A stretch of 12,103 nt of DNA from Nanobdellati archaeon. Its GTDB lineage: Archaea > EX4484-52 > JAADEF01. Both the position numbers and the translations under genes were made by a program. Of this stretch, positions 1,403-10,271 are shown in pieces (position 1 is the first letter of the stretch; each line of letters starts with the position of its first letter). Below the pieces are notes generated by a model that worked only from the letters and a program-made list of their open reading frames with translations, had not been told where the DNA came from and searched no databases. The DNA lies in contig WAOB01000043.1 in NCBI GenBank assembly GCA_015521505.1, positions 1-12,103 of the forward strand, in the 5' to 3' direction.

Positions 1403-1417
1403 CGAAATCTTTATATA
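1403..1417 (+). promoter_or_regulatory. Archaeal BRE/TATA promoter for the pilin-like operon
   Basis: A purine-rich BRE-like CGAAA (1403-1407) precedes TTTATATA (1410-1417), close to the archaeal consensus. Transcription would start near 1438-1442. That leaves a leader of about 30 bases carrying the AAAGGTGGT ribosome binding site of the next gene. It is the strongest promoter-like sequence in the window and the likely driver of the genes from 1474 to 8859. Confidence 0.75.
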
Positions 1418-1460: not shown

Positions 1461-1469
1461 AAAGGTGGT
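1461..1469 (+). promoter_or_regulatory. Ribosome binding site AAAGGTGGT
   Basis: AGGTG pairs with the CACCU of the archaeal 16S 3' end. The site lies four bases before the ATG at 1474 and inside the longer frame that opens at the ATG at 1453. It therefore decides for 1474 as the start. Confidence 0.7.
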
Positions 1470-1473
1470 TTTG

Positions 1474-2100
1474 ATGCATTATAAAAAAAAAGGAGCATTT
1501 CAAGTTAGTTTAACTATGATAATTGGAGTTGTGTTTGCTGTTATCATTTTGGGTTTGGCTATTTCATGGATAACTTCTTCTTTTTCTGGGATAAGTAAGA
1601 TCTCTGACCAAGCATTAGAGGCCGCTAAGAGTAATTTGAGAACCACTACTGATCAGAAAAGCGTTCCGGTCTTAGGAGGAGACAGTATGAGAGCAGATGA
1701 TGAGATAGAAGCAACGATAGTAATAAGAAATAATAAATATTATCCTGCAGTATTTAAAATTATATTATTTTCTCCAAAATATGATGACAAGCCTTTATTT
1801 GAGTTCGGTAGCGTTTCAGAGTATGATGAGAAGGAAGGAATAGGATATGATATATCCAAACGGTTATCTCCTGACGAAATAGGTGAATCCAGATTTACTA
1901 TTCTAGGAACCTCTATGTTGAAAGAATGGGTAAAAAAGGAAATAGAGAATAAAGGGAGAATAAAAAGATCTGTTCAGATTAGATATGAGATAGAGGTATG
2001 TAGTATTGAAGATGATAAAAATAATTGTGATCTTGAAAAAGGCACGTGGAGTTATTATGATGGAGGAGAGATGATTTTGGATATACTTTCTGAGAAGTAA
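1474..2100 (+). CDS. Type IV pilin-like secreted protein
   Basis: This 208-residue protein begins MHYKKKGAFQVSLTM. A basic patch ending in glycine (KKKG) is followed directly by an uncharged helix of about 25 residues (to ISWI, about residue 33). That layout is the archaeal class III signal peptide cleaved by prepilin peptidase after the glycine, and QVSL resembles the QxSxE start of mature archaeal pilins. The expected glutamate at mature position 5 is missing here. The rest (about 75-208) alternates short hydrophobic and charged stretches, as in a beta-sandwich head, and has one cysteine pair (C176, C185) near the C-terminus. The start at 1474 is chosen over the in-frame ATG at 1453 because the ribosome binding site falls between them. 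A stop is followed after 67 bases by the next pilin-like gene. Assembly into a pilus is inference: no secretion ATPase, platform protein or peptidase gene lies in the window. Confidence 0.8.
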   Translation: MHYKKKGAFQVSLTMIIGVVFAVIILGLAISWITSSFSGISKISDQALEAAKSNLRTTTDQKSVPVLGGDSMRADDEIEATIVIRNNKYYPAVFKIILFSPKYDDKPLFEFGSVSEYDEKEGIGYDISKRLSPDEIGESRFTILGTSMLKEWVKKEIENKGRIKRSVQIRYEIEVCSIEDDKNNCDLEKGTWSYYDGGEMILDILSEK

Positions 2101-2121
2101 TTCCATTTACGACATCGGTAA

Positions 2122-2135
2122 TAAAATATTAAAAA
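2122..2135 (+). promoter_or_regulatory. Possible internal TATA box
   Basis: The A/T-only run TAAAATATTAAAAA in the 67-base gap before the GTG at 2168 could be a weak TATA element, with transcription starting near 2150-2155 just ahead of the ribosome binding site. There is no convincing BRE, and AT-rich runs are common here. Readthrough from the promoter at 1403 is at least as likely. Confidence 0.25.
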
Positions 2136-2155
2136 TACTTACAGGTTATGGTTTC

Positions 2156-2164
2156 AAAGGTGGT
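2156..2164 (+). promoter_or_regulatory. Ribosome binding site AAAGGTGGT for a GTG start
   Basis: This is the same nine bases as the site before the previous gene. It sits three bases ahead of the GTG at 2168, which supports GTG as the true start; no ATG occurs in frame close by. Confidence 0.65.
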
Positions 2165-2167
2165 TTA

Positions 2168-4756
2168 GTGAACAAAGGATTTTCAATAACCATAGGTAGT
2201 GTTTTAACAGCATTGATTTTGTTTGGTTCTTTGTTTTTGATTTCATATTGGTATTCATCTAATTCTATCTCTAATACTCCTACAGCAAAAGCTATTGTTT
2301 CTCCAGAAAAGCCATATACTTATGATGTCTCTTCTAAAAGAGAAGAGGTTGAGCAGATAATCAGAAACTCATTGATAGAGGCAATTAAGGAAGTTGAAAG
2401 ATACGGAGGATATTTATTAGGAGAGGAAAATGATGTTTTTCCTAAAAAAACAGTGGATTTTAGAGGAGGTCTGGTTCCTTATTATAGAGTATGTGGTGAA
2501 ACAAAATATCCTACTTTAGATGAGATAAAGGAAAAGATAAGATTTCGATTTATACAGATACTTGATGAGAATATGAGGAAATATGTAAAAGGGGATGAGA
2601 ATTTAGAATATAGTGGAGCAGATTTTGATATCACTATACTAGATGGTAAGATAAGAAGTTTGGGTAATGTGTATGTTAGTTATAAAGGTAACTCAATTCC
2701 TTTAGAATATCAAGTTGATATTCCTACGAGATTAAAAGAGATTTATGAATATGTCACTTCTTTTAGTGAAATGATGAGCGAAACTAGGTTATTGGATTAC
2801 TTATTCTTGAATACTCTTTATATGGCAAAACAAAATTATTTTCCTACATGGGGTACATTAACTAAGTGTGGTGAAAGAATAGAGATTGATAATATAGAGC
2901 TCACCAGAAGATTTATGTATCTTTATGATTATTTCTTAACAAATGTTGATCTCTCCTCCGATAGTGCTTTAGTTTCCTCTATTTTAGGTGGAAATTCTCT
3001 TGATACTACTATGTATGACAATTACCCTCCTTATTATTTTATCTCTAGTGTTATAGATCCTTCTGGAAATGTGGTAACAACAGATTTGGAGGCTAAATTA
3101 TCTATACCAGACGATTACTTCTTTATTATGCCTAATGGAATTTCATTAGTAAATGATGAACCTATTTTAAGAGTGGTGGTTCCTATAGTGGATTCTTGCC
3201 TTTTGCCGTATAACATAACTTACTCGTTCCCTTTCTCTTATGTGTTGTCTATAAAAGATGATTTATTAGCGAAGGATGCTTACTATAATATTGCAGAATA
3301 TTCCTCTATAATATCTATGACTCCTAGTAATGAATGTGGATATGAAGATATTCCAGATAATGAAGGTATTTTTATGCCTCTATTGAATGATGAGTCAGAA
3401 CTATTAAATTCTCTCGAAGAGATTGTGGGAGAGGTTTCAGAAGATGTTGAGGAAGAGGTAGCTTGTAGAGAGGAAAAGGAAATTGTGGTTTCTGTAAAAG
3501 ATGAGTCAGGAAATCCAGTTTCAGGGGCAAATGTGTTGTTTGGTCCATGTTTTATTGGGGTAACTAATGAATATGGCATGGTTAAAGGCAAGGTGAATGA
3601 AGGAGAATTTCTATTAAGGATTGATGCAGGTGAAGGATATGTATTCTATTCTAAATTACACGATACCAGAGAGGAAAGATATATCAGTATTACCCTTCCT
3701 CGCACTTATGAAACTTCTGAGATAGATATGGATTATGTTGTTATTAAAGGAAGGATTGTAGACACATGTTCTGGTGATGAGGAGACATGTCCTGAATATG
3801 TTCCTAAAAGGAGTATGGTAGATATAGGGTCTTTCTCCCCTTATGTTGCACCTACGGATGTTGTGTTTGAAGTAGAGAAATGTGAAATAGTGGATGAGTA
3901 TAAATTTAATTTGCCTACTAATGACGCAGTGAGGATTGATGTATCAATGACATACAATTATGATATGGGTCCCAGATATTACCCAGAAGGTCTTATTACT
4001 CTTGAAGAAAACGATGAAGAAAGTATAAATGTGCAGGTAGATGAGGATGTAATGGAAGATGTTGTTGAGAAAGAGATGGATGTCGGTTTATATTTTGTGT
4101 CATCTATAAGCGAGGAGATATCGGGATCTGAGGAAGGTAATTCTAAAGAGAAAAGATTTATCTTACCTTTCGGAAAACAGAATGTTGATATTTTAATGAT
4201 AAAAAAACCTGTAGATAATGAAAATATTAATACAGAAGGGAGTAAATCTATTATAATGTTAGGAAAATACTCTTTTTCAAGTAATGATTTCATTTACAGT
4301 AATAAGAGGTCTTCGCAGATAGTACCTAAACAACTTAAAAGAGTTATTGTACCAGTTATAGAGGTTTCAGCACCTGAGGAAGAGATTTATACAGATTATC
4401 TTTATTCCAAATATTTAGATATAGGGTTCGTTATTTCCACTCTTTATGAAGATTCGAATAAAGCACAAAAGTATTTGGAGGAAGGACTTACACGTGTGAT
4501 ATATGAAGGTTGTAGGATAGATCCTTTAGGAGAAACAAGAGAAGGGGTTAAAATATATCCGATAAATTGGGAAAACAGCAGAGCAGATGAGGTTCTTGCA
4601 AGTATTTCACAGGAATGCGGTATAGATCCTGGAGATTATTGTTCATATACTCCTGATGATGATGTTAGTTGTAATAGGGAAGAACTCATTGCTGTGTTAA
4701 GAAACGAGGGATGTTATGTAACGGATGCTGTTGTTATATGGAAAGATAATGCTTAA
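2168..4756 (+). CDS. Large surface protein with pilin-like N-terminus and carboxypeptidase-regulatory-like domain
   Basis: This 862-residue protein starts with GTG. Its N-terminus MNKGF plus a hydrophobic helix (about residues 5-28) resembles a class III signal peptide with cleavage after KG. It is followed by a Ser/Thr/Pro linker (30-50) and a helical domain (56-145) containing RYGGYLLGE. Residues about 200-260 and 285-375 look like further domains, the second beta-rich. Residues about 425-512 match a carboxypeptidase-regulatory-like (transthyretin-type) beta domain: VSVKDESGNPVSGANV, then TNEYGMVKGKV, then GEFLLRIDAGEGY. This is the one part I can assign to a family. Residues 610-660 are very acidic. 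Fourteen cysteines (109, 234, 344, 390, 433, 461, 534, 541, 572, 782, 817, 825, 835, 849) include a cluster in the last 90 residues, suggesting a disulfide-locked C-terminal domain. From memory, large DPANN surface proteins share the order helix, GGY motif, middle beta domain and regulatory-like domain; I cannot verify this here. Function is unknown; a surface or adhesive role is inferred. Confidence 0.8.
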   Translation: MNKGFSITIGSVLTALILFGSLFLISYWYSSNSISNTPTAKAIVSPEKPYTYDVSSKREEVEQIIRNSLIEAIKEVERYGGYLLGEENDVFPKKTVDFRGGLVPYYRVCGETKYPTLDEIKEKIRFRFIQILDENMRKYVKGDENLEYSGADFDITILDGKIRSLGNVYVSYKGNSIPLEYQVDIPTRLKEIYEYVTSFSEMMSETRLLDYLFLNTLYMAKQNYFPTWGTLTKCGERIEIDNIELTRRFMYLYDYFLTNVDLSSDSALVSSILGGNSLDTTMYDNYPPYYFISSVIDPSGNVVTTDLEAKLSIPDDYFFIMPNGISLVNDEPILRVVVPIVDSCLLPYNITYSFPFSYVLSIKDDLLAKDAYYNIAEYSSIISMTPSNECGYEDIPDNEGIFMPLLNDESELLNSLEEIVGEVSEDVEEEVACREEKEIVVSVKDESGNPVSGANVLFGPCFIGVTNEYGMVKGKVNEGEFLLRIDAGEGYVFYSKLHDTREERYISITLPRTYETSEIDMDYVVIKGRIVDTCSGDEETCPEYVPKRSMVDIGSFSPYVAPTDVVFEVEKCEIVDEYKFNLPTNDAVRIDVSMTYNYDMGPRYYPEGLITLEENDEESINVQVDEDVMEDVVEKEMDVGLYFVSSISEEISGSEEGNSKEKRFILPFGKQNVDILMIKKPVDNENINTEGSKSIIMLGKYSFSSNDFIYSNKRSSQIVPKQLKRVIVPVIEVSAPEEEIYTDYLYSKYLDIGFVISTLYEDSNKAQKYLEEGLTRVIYEGCRIDPLGETREGVKIYPINWENSRADEVLASISQECGIDPGDYCSYTPDDDVSCNREELIAVLRNEGCYVTDAVVIWKDNA

Positions 4757-4776
4757 CAAGGTTGTTATAATATAGT

Positions 4777-4784
4777 GGGGTGGT
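4777..4784 (+). promoter_or_regulatory. Ribosome binding site GGGGTGGT
   Basis: GGGGTGGT ends seven bases before the ATG at 4792. The in-frame GTG at 4780 lies inside this site and cannot use it, so 4792 is the preferred start. Confidence 0.65.
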
Positions 4785-4791
4785 AGTTATA

Positions 4792-7700
4792 ATGAAGAAG
4801 GGTTTTTTAAAGACATTTAGCATAGCTATAGTAAATTATTTAATAATATCTCTCATTATTGCATTTCCTTATGTGTTATCAAAGAATATTAGTGTGGTTT
4901 ACGCTGAAGGTATAGGAAGTGATGAAAATGAAGAGACATACGCTGAAAGAACAGAGATGTCTTTAAAAGGGGAATCATATCCTATTTATGTTATAAGTGA
5001 GAAGGGGTTCTATTATCTGGAAAATGTTGAATTTTCTGTAGAGGTGAGAGGAGTAACAGGAGATGTTTCTTCTATGTCTTATGAGATTTCTATTGACGGA
5101 GAGAGATATACTAGTAGTTGTTTGATCTCAAGAAGATCTATAGCCTCTACATCCTTTGACTGTACTATACCTTTAATTAAAGGTGTTATGTCACCAGATA
5201 TTTATGAAAATAGTGTAATTGAAGGTACTGTAAAATTGACTTATTATATTGATGGATTCAAGCGTATAAAATATTTTGATCTCTCTATTCCATTACAAGA
5301 ACCCACTTTTATTGAGTTAGAATACGATATGGAAAATTTTGATTCTGAAGATTTTATTTTAAACTTTGTAGGATACAATTCTGCTGATAACGAAAGAGGA
5401 TTTTGCATGTTTAAAGAATTAAACAATCCTGTCTCATTTAAATTGAATGTTACTACTAATTATCCTATTGCTTCTTCATATAGGGTTTCTGTAGATGATG
5501 CAACATTTATGGTTTACGGTACAGAAATCTTGGCAGATGCTGATTATTCTTGTAGTGTTGTGGAGGTTTATGATGAGGGAATTATTGAATTTGAATGTGA
5601 AGTTGATTCTTTGAATGCTGATTCTGGATGGTTTTTATGCTCGGATGAATCTTTAAGTTCTGGAAGTTTTTCTGAATTAGATGGAAATTTATTGGTGAAA
5701 GTTTTTTCAGGAGAGGCAAATTATAAAGAATATGAGGTTTCTGTAGACGGGTATTACTATATAGAAGAAGTGTATGATAAGTTGGAATATGATATGAAAA
5801 TATATGGGGAATCTCCCGATACTCCTATATCTTTCGATTGTTATAGATATGGAGAAGATAATCCATATTGTATACCTTTAGACGAGAAAGGGGAATACAA
5901 ACCTATTGATTTTAATATATTTATCTCTGGTTTTGATGGTTCTTATGAGATAATAGAGTATGATGTTGTGATGAATATTGATAATAACTATCTAGGCAAC
6001 CCCTCTTTGGATTTAGTATTATGTGATATAGAGGATAGAACAGATATGAATTTGCTTTTAAGTTGTGAGGCATATTTGCCATTGATAGAGTATGAAGGAT
6101 TGGATACTGTATCTATAAGTGTTCTCCTCAGATATTCCGATGGTGAAGAAGAATACTCTGAGATGCTTTCGAAAGAAGGTGTGGTGGATATTAATGTCCG
6201 TGATGATGCGGTTCCGTATTTTATGTTTATAGAGTATCCTAATATAAAGGAGGAAGGAAATCCTGAAATTGTTGTATCTACATCTGGAGAAGAATATTTA
6301 GGATGTTTAATTGATCCATATAATAATATTTGTTACTTTGGTGAGATTTCTGATGATATTCTGAGGTCTGTATTTGGAAGTTCATTTGAAAATGAGGAAT
6401 TTAAGTATCCTTTTGAACTTTCAATTAAGGGTTATGTGTTCTCCAATATTTTAGATGTTGTCTCTGAAGAGGATGGATTATTTAATATTGAGGTAGAGGT
6501 ATCTTCTATAGAAGAGAGGGTGTTTAATTATGTGATTACTAAAAACGATTGTGAAATTGATGAGCATCCGAATTTCAAAGGCATATATATGATTAGCTGT
6601 TCTATAGATCTATCGACAAGAGAACCTTTTAAGAGTGGTATTCCTTATGATCCAAGAGACCCGCCACAAGTCTCTTACTTTGTTGCATATGCAGACGGAA
6701 ATAAGAGAGGAGAGATAATATTCTCTGAAATGAGAGATGTTGAAATTGAAAAAGATATTATTGATATTGTTGGAAATATGGATGTTAGTATAGTTGATAG
6801 AATATATAATAAAGAATATATGAGTTTGATTCTTTCTCTATCACCTTCAGATGTATTAGATGAAAGTACTATGGTTGAAGGGGACATTGTATATGCTTAT
6901 GGAGTACCTTCAAAGACACTTCCTGTAAATGATGTCCAGAATCTATATACTTCCTTAGGATTTAAAGGAGTTCCTGTGTGTAAGTTACCTGTTAGATTAA
7001 CACGGATATTTGCAGAGGGTGTTGGGTGTGATCCTCAAGATTATCAATGTTTATTTAATGAAAGGGATAAGTTCTTTAACCCTCAAGAAAAACCAGAATG
7101 TATTTTCCGACAAGGAATAGCGTTAGTGATAAAGATAGATGGTATCTATAATAAGAGTAGTTATGCTCCAAAAACACTTTATTATGCATTTAGAGAAGAC
7201 AAAGTGTACTCTATGGATGCTACTCCCCGTAGATGTTATGATATACAAAGATATTCTGAGTTTCTCTCCTCTTTAGAGGAGAACAAGACATTCCCCTTAC
7301 CATTATGTGAGGATTATTATGGTCCTACCTCAGAATCTTCGAAATGTGATTTATATGATTATGGAGAGGAAGGTTCATACATTATGATGTGTGAACTTCC
7401 TGAATTAGGTATAACCATGGATTGGGAGGATATACCTCTTTACGGAATGTATTATTATTCTGCAGAAGATCCTTTAATTGTTACTTTGTCTTCAGATGAT
7501 AATGGTTATTTGAGAAACGGTACGGATATATATACATTTGATTATATAGTTGAGAACACTTACGGTACAATAACTTTTGCACTAAATACATATAATCAAT
7601 ATAAAGACGCTGTTCAGAGAGTTATAGAGGAAATAAATAGAATTTACAATAGACTTATGATAGTCGTGGGTATAATAACTATTTTGGATGTAACCTTTGG

Positions 7701-8859
7701 TTCAAACATGGCACCTTCATTCCTTGCATATACCACCCCAAGTACTTGTTTAGTTGGTTGCATTTCTTGTGTTACTTCTTTATTTAGTGGAGGTGTAGGG
7801 TATGGTGCATGTGTTAAAGAGAGTTATCTTGTTGGTTCTCCATCATGTGGAACATGTGTTCCTTTATTTGATGGGGCTTTTGTTTGTACCACCGCAGGAT
7901 CTTTATGGATAAACGATTTCTTGAAAGGTCAATTAGATAGAGCATCTAAGGATTATGAGAAATCCATGCTTGCTATACTTAAACTGCAATATCTCCTGAA
8001 TAATTTAGATATTGAAGTACAAGCAGGAGAGTATGGAACAACTTCGAGAGAATCATCATTTAGACAATTTAAAAAGGATGTTAAAGATATGGCGAATAAA
8101 TTAAAATATACTTCATATTATGCGAAGATCTTAAATGAAAACATAGGAAGTCCTTGGAAAGACCTTCTTAAGTGGTATTATACTGGTCTATGTGGTTATA
8201 TTTTAGGGAAGAGTATACTAAGTATTAAAGAAGTAGGTATTGGAGAGGCAGTTCTTTATGGATCTCTAATAGGTGCAGGAACTACTACTGCGATAGAATA
8301 TGTGTTCACTGGTAGGGTTGAAGGTGAAACAGCACTTAAAGGAGGTATTACTGGTGGTTTAGGTGGTGTAGCGGCTGCTTGGAATCCGGTACTTATGAAA
8401 GTGATTACAGGCTATGGTTTAGCATTTGTAGGTGCTAACTTCATAATTGGTTATCTAAGTGGAGGAGCAGAAAGAGAAAGAGCAGCCTTCATGTTAGGAT
8501 CAACTTTCTTAGCAGCAGGTATTGGTATGGCTATAGCAGGGGCGATACAACTTATGGAAATTGGTGTTAAGAAAGGATATGAGTGGTATTTAAGAAAGAA
8601 AGGCGTGTTGGCAGAGAATGAAGAACTTATAAGTGTAGATCCACCAAAAGAAATGGAGATAGTATATAGGACAAATAATAATTTTGAGGAGCCTAAAAGT
8701 GAGAGAGTTAAAGTAAAATATGAGATAAAAGGACCCACACAACCAGATGGTCATGTATCTGTGAAAAAAATTATCACCACAGATGGACGAGTATTTGAGT
8801 GGCAGTCTACTATAGGATATGTAGAAAGAGATAGGATTGATATATCTAAATTACCTTAA
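4792..8859 (+). CDS. Giant secreted protein with tandem cysteine-paired repeats and C-terminal membrane region
   Basis: This 1355-residue protein has no recognised family. Residues 1-38 form a Sec-type signal peptide (MKKG, hydrophobic core, likely cut after VYA). Residues about 62-660 hold four degenerate tandem units. Each has a cysteine pair 14-16 residues apart (110/124, 254/269, 411/425, 587/603), preceded by YxV/YEI-type strands. Three of the units are followed by a Y-x-DG strand end (YIDG, YSDG, YADG). Units 3 and 4 carry an extra early pair (350/360, 505/514). They look like Ig-type beta domains with conserved disulfides. Residues about 700-920 form another cysteine-containing globular region. 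A hydrophobic helix (about 955-969) precedes a seven-cysteine cluster (about 985-1035) and a charged helical stretch (1043-1103). Hydrophobic Gly/Ala-rich segments follow at about 1132-1173, 1178-1225 and 1231-1259. The last 96 residues lack cysteine and begin with a basic KKGYEWYLRKKG, so this tail probably faces the cytoplasm. The gap from the preceding gene is 35 bases, consistent with one operon. A role as a surface or contact protein is inferred. Confidence 0.8.
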   Translation: MKKGFLKTFSIAIVNYLIISLIIAFPYVLSKNISVVYAEGIGSDENEETYAERTEMSLKGESYPIYVISEKGFYYLENVEFSVEVRGVTGDVSSMSYEISIDGERYTSSCLISRRSIASTSFDCTIPLIKGVMSPDIYENSVIEGTVKLTYYIDGFKRIKYFDLSIPLQEPTFIELEYDMENFDSEDFILNFVGYNSADNERGFCMFKELNNPVSFKLNVTTNYPIASSYRVSVDDATFMVYGTEILADADYSCSVVEVYDEGIIEFECEVDSLNADSGWFLCSDESLSSGSFSELDGNLLVKVFSGEANYKEYEVSVDGYYYIEEVYDKLEYDMKIYGESPDTPISFDCYRYGEDNPYCIPLDEKGEYKPIDFNIFISGFDGSYEIIEYDVVMNIDNNYLGNPSLDLVLCDIEDRTDMNLLLSCEAYLPLIEYEGLDTVSISVLLRYSDGEEEYSEMLSKEGVVDINVRDDAVPYFMFIEYPNIKEEGNPEIVVSTSGEEYLGCLIDPYNNICYFGEISDDILRSVFGSSFENEEFKYPFELSIKGYVFSNILDVVSEEDGLFNIEVEVSSIEERVFNYVITKNDCEIDEHPNFKGIYMISCSIDLSTREPFKSGIPYDPRDPPQVSYFVAYADGNKRGEIIFSEMRDVEIEKDIIDIVGNMDVSIVDRIYNKEYMSLILSLSPSDVLDESTMVEGDIVYAYGVPSKTLPVNDVQNLYTSLGFKGVPVCKLPVRLTRIFAEGVGCDPQDYQCLFNERDKFFNPQEKPECIFRQGIALVIKIDGIYNKSSYAPKTLYYAFREDKVYSMDATPRRCYDIQRYSEFLSSLEENKTFPLPLCEDYYGPTSESSKCDLYDYGEEGSYIMMCELPELGITMDWEDIPLYGMYYYSAEDPLIVTLSSDDNGYLRNGTDIYTFDYIVENTYGTITFALNTYNQYKDAVQRVIEEINRIYNRLMIVVGIITILDVTFGSNMAPSFLAYTTPSTCLVGCISCVTSLFSGGVGYGACVKESYLVGSPSCGTCVPLFDGAFVCTTAGSLWINDFLKGQLDRASKDYEKSMLAILKLQYLLNNLDIEVQAGEYGTTSRESSFRQFKKDVKDMANKLKYTSYYAKILNENIGSPWKDLLKWYYTGLCGYILGKSILSIKEVGIGEAVLYGSLIGAGTTTAIEYVFTGRVEGETALKGGITGGLGGVAAAWNPVLMKVITGYGLAFVGANFIIGYLSGGAERERAAFMLGSTFLAAGIGMAIAGAIQLMEIGVKKGYEWYLRKKGVLAENEELISVDPPKEMEIVYRTNNNFEEPKSERVKVKYEIKGPTQPDGHVSVKKIITTDGRVFEWQSTIGYVERDRIDISKLP

Positions 8860-8912: not shown

Positions 8913-10247
8913 ATGACCTCAAAACAATACGATATTATTTTCATATCAACAGGAGCATGTTTTAATGAGTTTTTGAGTTTGGTTAAGAACATTCCTTCTT
9001 TAAAAGAGAAAAAGATTCTTGTGGTGGAGGATTTTTCTATTGGCGGGAATTGCTTGAATTACAACTGCTTACCAGTGCAATATCTTTATGAAGGAGCAAA
9101 ACTCATGAGGGGTATAAAGCAAGGTTATTATTATGGTGTTGTTTTTGATGTTGTTAGGTTTGATTATCCTATGCTTAGATCTCAACTTTTATATTACATT
9201 GAAGAGCTTAAAGAAAAGATGTTAAATAAAGCAAAATCTTTGGGCATAGAGGTAGTTTATGGAAAACCTAAAGTATATGAAAATTACATAGAGATTAATG
9301 GAGAAAAAATTTATTCTGATAATATTATTGTGGCACACAATACTTCTTATTGTTTTTCTCATGATGTTTTAAAAGTAGATAATCATACTTGCTTTTTAGC
9401 ACAAAGATTTTTAGATTATAAGGGAGATATTAAAAGAGTTGCTGTTTATGGTGATAACTCTTTTTCCTATACTTTAGCAACAATACTTGCAAACCTATCT
9501 AATGTTGAAGTGTTTTATATAATAGAAGGAGAATTTTTAGAGGATGTATCTATAAGTAATGAACTAAAAAACTCCTTAAAGCAGAGGTTGATTGAGGAGA
9601 GCAAAATAAATATAATAGAAAAATCTAAAGTGAAGGAGTATTGGCATAAAAACAACAAAGCATTTATAGAGATAGAGGATTACGGATTAATAGATTATGT
9701 TGATGTGGTTTTTGTTGAAGGAGAAAGATGCTCAAACATAAGAGATATAGTTTCTTTTGACATATCTGCTACAAAAGAAGGTTTAGTAGAGATAGTCAAA
9801 CACAATAATGTTTATTTCTGTGGAGATATTTTAAGAGATATTTCAGGAACAGAAAAAGAGTTTTGGATAATGGATGAGATAGTTAAAGACATCATCAAAG
9901 GAGAGGGAGATTTTGAGATATACAAGAAGAAGGTTAATTTTGTGAGAGGTTTTCCAGGTATAGTGTATAATAAATACAAGGTAGAAGAGAATAACAAAAA
10001 AATAATTATAAAGGCAGAAGAGTATCCTCTCTATAAGATTTTTGGTTTAAACCCTATAGATACTATCGTAATTTATGTTGATGCTAAAAACATCATAAAA
10101 GGTTATGAGATTGTTTCTCATAATGCAGAGATATTTGCTAACTATTTAAACGTTTTCATAAACCATCAGATACCTTTTGATAAAGAAATTATATTCAATC
10201 CTCATTATTTAATGCTTTTGAGGAAATCAGAAATTAGAAACATTTAA
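8913..10247 (+). CDS. Degenerate class I pyridine nucleotide-disulfide oxidoreductase
   Basis: This 444-residue protein has the length and domain order of the dihydrolipoamide dehydrogenase/glutathione reductase/mercuric reductase family. An N-terminal FAD-type region (1-150) contains GGNCLNYNCLPVQYL at 44-58, matching the family motif GGTCxNxGCIPSK and keeping the redox cysteines C47 and C52. A central NAD(P)-type region starts at about residue 174, and a VYFCGD segment at about 303-308 matches the conserved GD of the second FAD motif. A C-terminal interface-type domain (about 345-444) ends with NPHYL where enzymes have the HPT catalytic motif. The oddities are strong. The first GxGxxG is STGACF (11-16), keeping one glycine of three, and the second is GDNSFS, also keeping one. 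The lysine after the second cysteine is replaced (VQ for SK). It may be a redox protein with altered cofactor binding or a non-catalytic relative. There is no signal peptide, so it is cytosolic. It is probably leaderless, and stands 53 bases after the giant secreted protein. Confidence 0.75.
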   Translation: MTSKQYDIIFISTGACFNEFLSLVKNIPSLKEKKILVVEDFSIGGNCLNYNCLPVQYLYEGAKLMRGIKQGYYYGVVFDVVRFDYPMLRSQLLYYIEELKEKMLNKAKSLGIEVVYGKPKVYENYIEINGEKIYSDNIIVAHNTSYCFSHDVLKVDNHTCFLAQRFLDYKGDIKRVAVYGDNSFSYTLATILANLSNVEVFYIIEGEFLEDVSISNELKNSLKQRLIEESKINIIEKSKVKEYWHKNNKAFIEIEDYGLIDYVDVVFVEGERCSNIRDIVSFDISATKEGLVEIVKHNNVYFCGDILRDISGTEKEFWIMDEIVKDIIKGEGDFEIYKKKVNFVRGFPGIVYNKYKVEENNKKIIIKAEEYPLYKIFGLNPIDTIVIYVDAKNIIKGYEIVSHNAEIFANYLNVFINHQIPFDKEIIFNPHYLMLLRKSEIRNI

Positions 10248-10250: not shown

Positions 10251-10271
10251 ATTTAACTTCCTATATAGTTT

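Follow-up and report, generated by a model that had tools for sequence, protein, structure and literature searches.

A pilin-like scaffold protein of DPANN archaea and the secreted, cysteine-rich giant encoded beside it: a conserved gene pair and candidate surface adhesion device

We analysed a 12,103-nucleotide stretch of DNA from a Nanobdellati archaeon (assembly GCA_015521505.1, contig WAOB01000043.1; hereafter the window), which constitutes one whole contig of an 849-kb source genome of 141 contigs and 77% completeness. One strand carries three genes lying head to tail, encoding a small pilin-like protein (P1), a much larger pilin-like protein (P2) and a secreted giant (P3), with intergenic gaps of 67 and 35 bases. 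Together they amount to 2425 residues, confirming the open reading frames (ORFs), gaps and approximate total of 2,400 residues given by a first-pass annotation of this DNA, which had been made from the sequence alone. The promoter that it placed ahead of the trio was also recovered, as an element resembling a B recognition element and TATA box (BRE/TATA-like); in addition, the sequence TTTATATA is present twice within the window by pattern scan. The features of the locus are as follows.

1403..1417, + strand: BRE/TATA-like promoter element CGAAATCTTTATATA, from a pattern scan, about 57 bases upstream of the P1 start
1464..1469, + strand: GGTGGT Shine-Dalgarno-like site of P1
1474..2100, + strand: P1, pilin-like protein, 208 amino acids (aa), ATG start
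2159..2164, + strand: GGTGGT Shine-Dalgarno-like site of P2
2168..4756, + strand: P2, pilin-like scaffold, 862 aa, GTG start; by sequence, it belongs to the DPANN P2-like family and is divergent within it
2168..2266, + strand: P2 charged N-terminal tip and hydrophobic helix, residues 1-33 (helix 2-35 in the structural model)
2321..3337, + strand: P2 conserved core, residues 52-390, with GGY motif, C234 and C344 (hhalign)
3470..3718, + strand: P2 transthyretin/carboxypeptidase-regulatory-like domain, residues 435-517, including C461
4779..4784, + strand: GGTGGT Shine-Dalgarno-like site of P3
4792..8859, + strand: P3, secreted cysteine-rich giant, 1355 aa, ATG start
4792..4911, + strand: Sec-type signal peptide of P3, placed by eye within residues 1-40; residues 11-29 have a hydropathy of 2.35
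4960..7551, + strand: P3 paired-cysteine region, putatively immunoglobulin (Ig)-like modules
7552..8856, + strand: C-terminal part of P3, putatively helical, with a glycine-rich tail and the cysteine cluster C986-C1032 (alignment A3)

Two of the traits first attributed to the trio hold in part. The GGTGGT sites do precede all three starts; the same site is also found upstream of a Yip1-like gene near 10270 in the window, and it is therefore no hallmark of the operon. Cysteine richness, set against a share of 0.73% among ORFs of at least 150 aa at three loci elsewhere in the genome, is clear for P2 (14 cysteines, 1.6%) and P3 (30 cysteines, 2.2%) and hardly so for P1 (2 cysteines, 0.96%). None of the three proteins matched anything above the cut-off in Pfam, or anything at all in NCBIfam.

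P2 begins with NKG/FSI followed by a hydrophobic stretch (hydropathy 2.36 at residues 7-25), and its structural model reached block-mean predicted local distance difference test (pLDDT) values of 55-95 over residues 52-260, with poor confidence at 264-343. The first relatives outside the window's own type came from genome G049, and these proteins share the overall plan of P2, comprising a pilin-like start, the GGY motif and a cysteine-bearing domain further along. Comparison of five window-type with nine G049-type proteins by hhalign yielded an E-value of 2.6e-10 (probability 96.8, 387 columns), which was 2.3e-10 once the N-terminal part had been removed, versus 0.49 for a reversed profile and 0.34-0.72 for eight column shuffles. 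In an alignment of 27 proteins including the window P2 (A9), C461 is shared by 27/27 and C234 and C344 by 25/27 each. By sequence comparison, P2 is thus a divergent member of a DPANN family of GGY-motif, pilin-like scaffolds for which there is no database model. NCBIfam matched none of the 27 family proteins at E 0.01, and among 14 P2-like proteins scanned against Pfam, one of window type gave a weak match to CarbopepD_reg_2 (E 0.0037), and a single member from Woesearchaeota matched DMAP1_like under the cut-off. When the profiles of P2 and P3 were compared with solved structures in the PDB, nothing emerged beyond one chance-level row. In three other loci (L033, L034 and L035, of G045, G029 and G031), the window-type P2 profile matched around the transthyretin-like domain only (E 2.1e-6 to 1.7e-4).

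A profile of the 27 members (E 0.001) identified matches in 207 of 236 genomes sampled evenly from one phylum, which we take to be Woesearchaeota; among the genomes at least 90% complete, the corresponding figure was 186/207. Matches per genome ranged from 1 to 7, where often five candidates were scored and a single gene may yield two matches. When 13 of the 29 negative genomes were searched again at E 10, one match was obtained (E 0.47). Two small single-contig genomes of the phylum with the attachment organelle (G158 and G185) remained without a P2-like match when the threshold was relaxed to E 10, and within the window's phylum a full-length match was found in 3 of 34 genomes (G000, G002 and G003), with a weak N-terminal match in two.

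Examination of gene order revealed that P2-like genes are repeatedly followed by a giant. In a set of 21 loci, 18 of them titled Woesearchaeota and one each Aenigmatarchaeota, Nanoarchaeia and uncultured archaeon, 20 possess a P2-like gene and then a same-strand giant of between 895 aa (cut by the contig end) and 2510 aa, the two genes overlapping by 4 bases in 12 of these 20; in the remaining locus the P2-like gene itself leaves the contig. A second set of 40 loci, one per family, was hand-picked among the matches listed (E to about 1e-74), so that weaker family members are under-sampled in it. Here a same-strand giant lies directly after the P2-like gene in 32 loci, 25 of the giants being complete (989-2695 aa) and seven running off the contig after 188-1926 aa, counted from the start. 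Two further loci (L116 and L132) have instead a short ORF with a signal-like start, one (L148) has a 292-aa ORF, which is matched by the P2 profile in its own right, and then a 1174-aa ORF, and in one (L153) the P2-like gene stands at the contig end. Over all 61 loci, a product of at least 900 aa is encoded within 250 bases downstream of 55 of the 70 P2-like genes, versus 3 of 305 other genes, each of these three being a giant itself or a piece of one; three contigs, to judge by their length, are counted twice in these figures (L091=L114, L094=L115 and L096=L128). The converse count, made without the repeated contigs and without four ORFs of at least 900 aa that failed the cysteine/N-terminal test (L081, L085, L116 and L151), showed a P2-like gene immediately before 53 of 55 giant-type ORFs, the remaining two following another giant; since the loci were picked for their P2-like gene, this figure is silent on giants elsewhere in the same genomes. 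Two P2-giant pairs were identified in 8 of the 21 loci, an arrangement that suits adhesins of different aim. In the window, P2 likewise has a large secreted neighbour, P3, which follows at 35 bases and overlaps P2 by 4 bases in G002 and G003.

Other arrangements were also observed among these loci. The short or split downstream genes of L116, L132 and L148 are perhaps broken genes or sequencing errors, and the P2-like genes of L140, L142, L149 and L152, which encode 712-771 aa and lack a giant, perhaps form a subfamily of their own. In two loci (L085:5381-9300 and L086:4938-8929), the strand opposite the main pair carries an adjacent second pair, in which the P2-like gene is short (301 and 304 aa) and the giant measures about 1010-1030 aa.

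The 32 giants possess hydrophobic N-termini and a cysteine content of 1.2-3.8%. Among ten scanned against Pfam, two exceeded the cut-off for fn3, Big_13 or Glucodextran_B and five matched such beta-sandwich models weakly, and the one giant that was modelled formed a chain of beta-sandwich domains with helices at the end. The giants examined thus look like secreted rods of Ig-like or fibronectin type III (FN3)-like domains. P3 had originally been described as sharing a KG-hydrophobic N-terminus with P1 and P2 and as being membrane-ended. The first description applies to P1 and P2; the P3 proteins of G002 and G003 start with MSIVRKLL or MRIVKKLL, without KG and resembling by eye an ordinary Sec signal peptide, which argues that P3 is Sec-secreted and not a third pilin-like protein. 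The second was not borne out, since the weak hydrophobic stretches of the window P3 at 951-969 and 1231-1249 reach a hydropathy of 1.6, a level attained in the G002 and G003 proteins by the signal peptide alone. A tandem repeat is clear in the P3 of G002 and not in that of the window, and a single-sequence search with P3 reached its relatives through residues 846-1066.

Comparison of P3 with the giants gave suggestive results at most. Its first approximately 140 residues aligned with them from residue 1 at E 9.8e-5 and probability 58, to which the signal peptides may contribute, and with a longer piece at E 2.0e-4 and probability 46; over its whole length P3 matched the shorter giant type at E 8.9e-4 (probability 23) and the longer type at E 0.14. 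The C-terminal parts of P3 gave no match to the giants. Given that P3 agrees with the giants in position, secretion signal and cysteine content, we regard it as the functional counterpart of the giants and probably a fast-changing homologue.

The order P1-P2-P3 is repeated in G002 and G003, two genomes from another genus of the same family, where consecutive genes overlap by 4 bases and the flanking genes are alike between the two genomes and different from those of the window. Over aligned columns, identity between the window and these relatives is 37-38% for P1, 32-33% for P2 and 25% for P3. Elongation factor 2 of G003 was most similar, among the named proteins listed, to one from Aenigmarchaeota (67%), followed by Nanohaloarchaea (64%), which places the lineage in the vicinity of these DPANN groups. 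In a third relative (G001), one contig begins with the 3' part of P3, and neither P1 nor P2 was found in this genome. Because G002 and G003 hold the same trio, its order is more than chance, and the gene-order comparison suggested by the first-pass annotation therefore reveals not singly scattered homologues but a trio whose order is preserved across the family, and a pairing of P2 with a giant that recurs in another phylum. P1 itself, which begins with KKKG/AFQ and has a mean hydropathy of 2.79 over residues 15-33, has a profile that is clear in the window's family only and gave chance-level rows alone against the PDB. No P1-like pilins were seen by eye in the P2-giant loci of the other phylum, where a motif scan returned two doubtful ORFs. 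P1 may be a small accessory pilin of the window's lineage. Further small genes with pilin-like N-termini (by eye) were observed in a run past the trio and a glycogen-synthase-like gene (G003, L009:3-2276; G002, L010:11055-12000).

Archaeal prepilins carry a class III signal, in which K/R-G/A stands ahead of a hydrophobic helix. P1 and P2 of the window have this form (K/R-G and one hydrophobic helix), and a prepilin-like motif, [KR][GA]Q[ILVMF][TS], is present in 35 of the 40 P2-like proteins of the second locus set. All four genomes of the window's family possess a prepilin peptidase (A24, PF01478) above the cut-off, at E 1.2e-8 in G000, as well as T2SSE ATPases (PF00437). In G000 the ATPases occupy three strong places. 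By eye, each of these adjoins a pair of membrane-protein-like ORFs, and two have small pilin-like ORFs beside them as well. PF06847, which belongs to archaeal prepilin peptidases, had no match in the four family genomes, and the window itself contains no pilus assembly genes detectable with Pfam. Ordinary-looking pilus loci, with ATPase- and membrane-protein-sized ORFs and then small pilin-like genes, were noted by eye in another family of the window's order (L038 and L039, of G018 and G013).

Two neighbouring genes are also of interest. Immediately upstream of the trio, 72-1385 encodes 437 aa with 12 cysteines (2.75%) and, towards the N-terminus, two hydrophobic stretches; this protein matched nothing above the cut-off in Pfam and nothing in NCBIfam; no similar gene was read beside the trio in G002 or G003. 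The product of 8913-10247, next to the cysteine-rich secreted operon, resembles flavin disulfide reductases, has the redox-type pair CLNYNC and scores far under the cut-offs of the NCBIfam models that it touched.

Taken together, these findings lead us to favour, at a probability of roughly 0.5, a reading of the operon as a surface adhesion device in which a membrane- or pilus-anchored P2-like protein displays a secreted, disulfide-stiffened rod in the manner of a tip adhesin. P2 would be exported with its prepilin-type N-terminus, be cleaved or retained at the hydrophobic helix, and be seated either in the membrane or, alternatively, at one end of a fibre resembling a type IV pilus that the genome's own pilus machinery builds. 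P3 would leave by the Sec route, fold as a disulfide-stabilised rod of Ig-like modules and dock onto P2, which would point it outward to bind another cell. What has been retained of the surface or host-contact apparatus originally proposed is a conserved operon with a small pilin-like protein, a large pilin-like protein and a secreted giant; beyond this, we infer filament formation, P2-P3 binding, the fold of P3, adhesion to a partner cell and host contact.

Several observations weigh against this interpretation. Four of the 40 loci (L140, L142, L149 and L152) have no giant beside the P2-like gene, and three of the ten giants scanned lacked any Pfam match. The homology of P3 to the Woesearchaeota giants is only suggestive at the sequence level, which leaves the link between them weak. 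Furthermore, the Q of the prepilin-like motif is missing from P2 of the window and of G002 and G003, and the large size of P2-like proteins is hard to fit into a pilus shaft. Finally, among 491 ORFs of the 61 loci, a single-sequence search, which divergent proteins could escape, found nothing like the three pilus ATPases of G000 and their six adjacent membrane-protein-like ORFs, so that the pair was not seen in pilus-machine clusters. This missing linkage to pilus genes makes it less likely that P2 serves as a shaft pilin, and leaves untouched the view that it works in a pilin-like way.

The closest known parallel is the tip complex of the bacterial type IV pilus, in which minor pilins (FimU-PilVWXE) and PilY1 likewise combine pilin-like proteins with a putative adhesin. 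By analogy, a P2-like protein is best read as displaying the giant, a role proposed for minor pilins with respect to PilY1. The two systems differ in that P2 far exceeds minor pilins in size and no pilus machinery genes were seen beside the pair. Adhesins of the PilY1 type possess a C-terminal beta-propeller; the P3 alignment (A3) gave no PDB sequence match and P3 no Pfam match. One study reports type IV pilin-like genes and pilY1 transcripts in groundwater ultra-small prokaryotes taken together (PMC9938205), and the idea of a pilus adhesin in such cells is thus already known. Searches of the open-licence literature, preprints excluded, turned up no account of the P2-giant pair itself, and within that literature, Pfam and NCBIfam the original statement that no named system has this composition still stands.

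The main rival to the adhesion reading, on account of the lack of pilus genes seen nearby and the near-universal presence of the family in the sampled phylum, is an envelope complex of P2 and P3 that makes no filament, with P2 as a membrane stalk fixed by its N-terminal helix and P3 not as an adhesin but as a structural protein of the wall or of a surface layer (S-layer)-like structure. SlaB, an archaeal S-layer protein, serves in Sulfolobus as a membrane stalk, and the transthyretin-like domain of P2 occurs both in SlaB and in Gram-positive pilins; this one domain is all that SlaB and P2 have in common. The prepilin-like motif kept in 35/40 loci argues against such a complex, and the occurrence of two different pairs in 8/21 loci, together with a repeat that is clear in the P3 of G002 and not in that of the window, fits adhesins better than a single lattice protein. 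We consider the envelope complex possible, though less likely than the adhesion reading. That the three genes are adjacent by chance and unrelated in function is scarcely credible: the failure to see P1-like pilins in the loci of the other phylum would agree with it, whereas G002 and G003 hold the trio as overlapping genes amid neighbours unlike those of the window, and P2-giant pairing far exceeds the control.

Two further alternatives assign the giant a different task. P2 might be a carrier pilin that helps to export P3 as released cargo acting away from the producer, in the way that the secreted TcpF is assisted by one of the minor pilins of the Vibrio toxin-coregulated pilus, a system with a soluble, secreted partner encoded in the same operon as the pilin with which it interacts (PMC9565799). 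Against this, P3 and the 32 giants each bear a hydrophobic N-terminal signal, and the giants contain adhesin-like domains. Moreover, these archaea are not known to have an outer membrane that would need to be crossed, and we judge the carrier model improbable. Still less probable is that the giant is an enzyme attacking the wall of the partner. Here the precedent is fam00969, described in a 2021 survey as extracellular proteins of up to 3,000 aa in Woesearchaeota and Pacearchaeota with a murein-transglycosylase domain (PMC8204110). These resemble the present giants in size, extracellular location and spread across the same archaea, and fam00969 and some of the giants may overlap. They differ in the transglycosylase domain, there being no match to it or to another peptidoglycan enzyme in ten giants (E 0.001) or in the window P3 (E 1), and the accessible part of the survey mentions no pilin-like partner (PMC8204110).

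A broader version of the adhesion reading, which we regard as doubtful, holds that scaffold and giant would form a contact machine specific to DPANN archaea, present in several versions per cell and providing the outward part of partner-seizing structures including attachment organelles, with the window as a second-phylum variant that has its own accessory pilin. The attachment organelle of Nanobdellota, which we take to be the same phylum, is likewise a large surface apparatus. It was described in two 2024 papers, of which one, a cryo-tomography study, calls its proteins unknown and the other leaves its molecular identity to later work (PMC11420986, PMC11104419). For this organelle the P2-giant pair is at most a candidate.

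These results bear on the means by which DPANN archaea recognise other cells and hold on to them. A family present in 207/236 sampled genomes of one phylum, paired with a giant in 32 of 40 families examined and encountered again in another phylum, provides concrete proteins for the study of contact sites between cells, and the occurrence of two pairs side by side in 8/21 loci could bear on the choice of partner.

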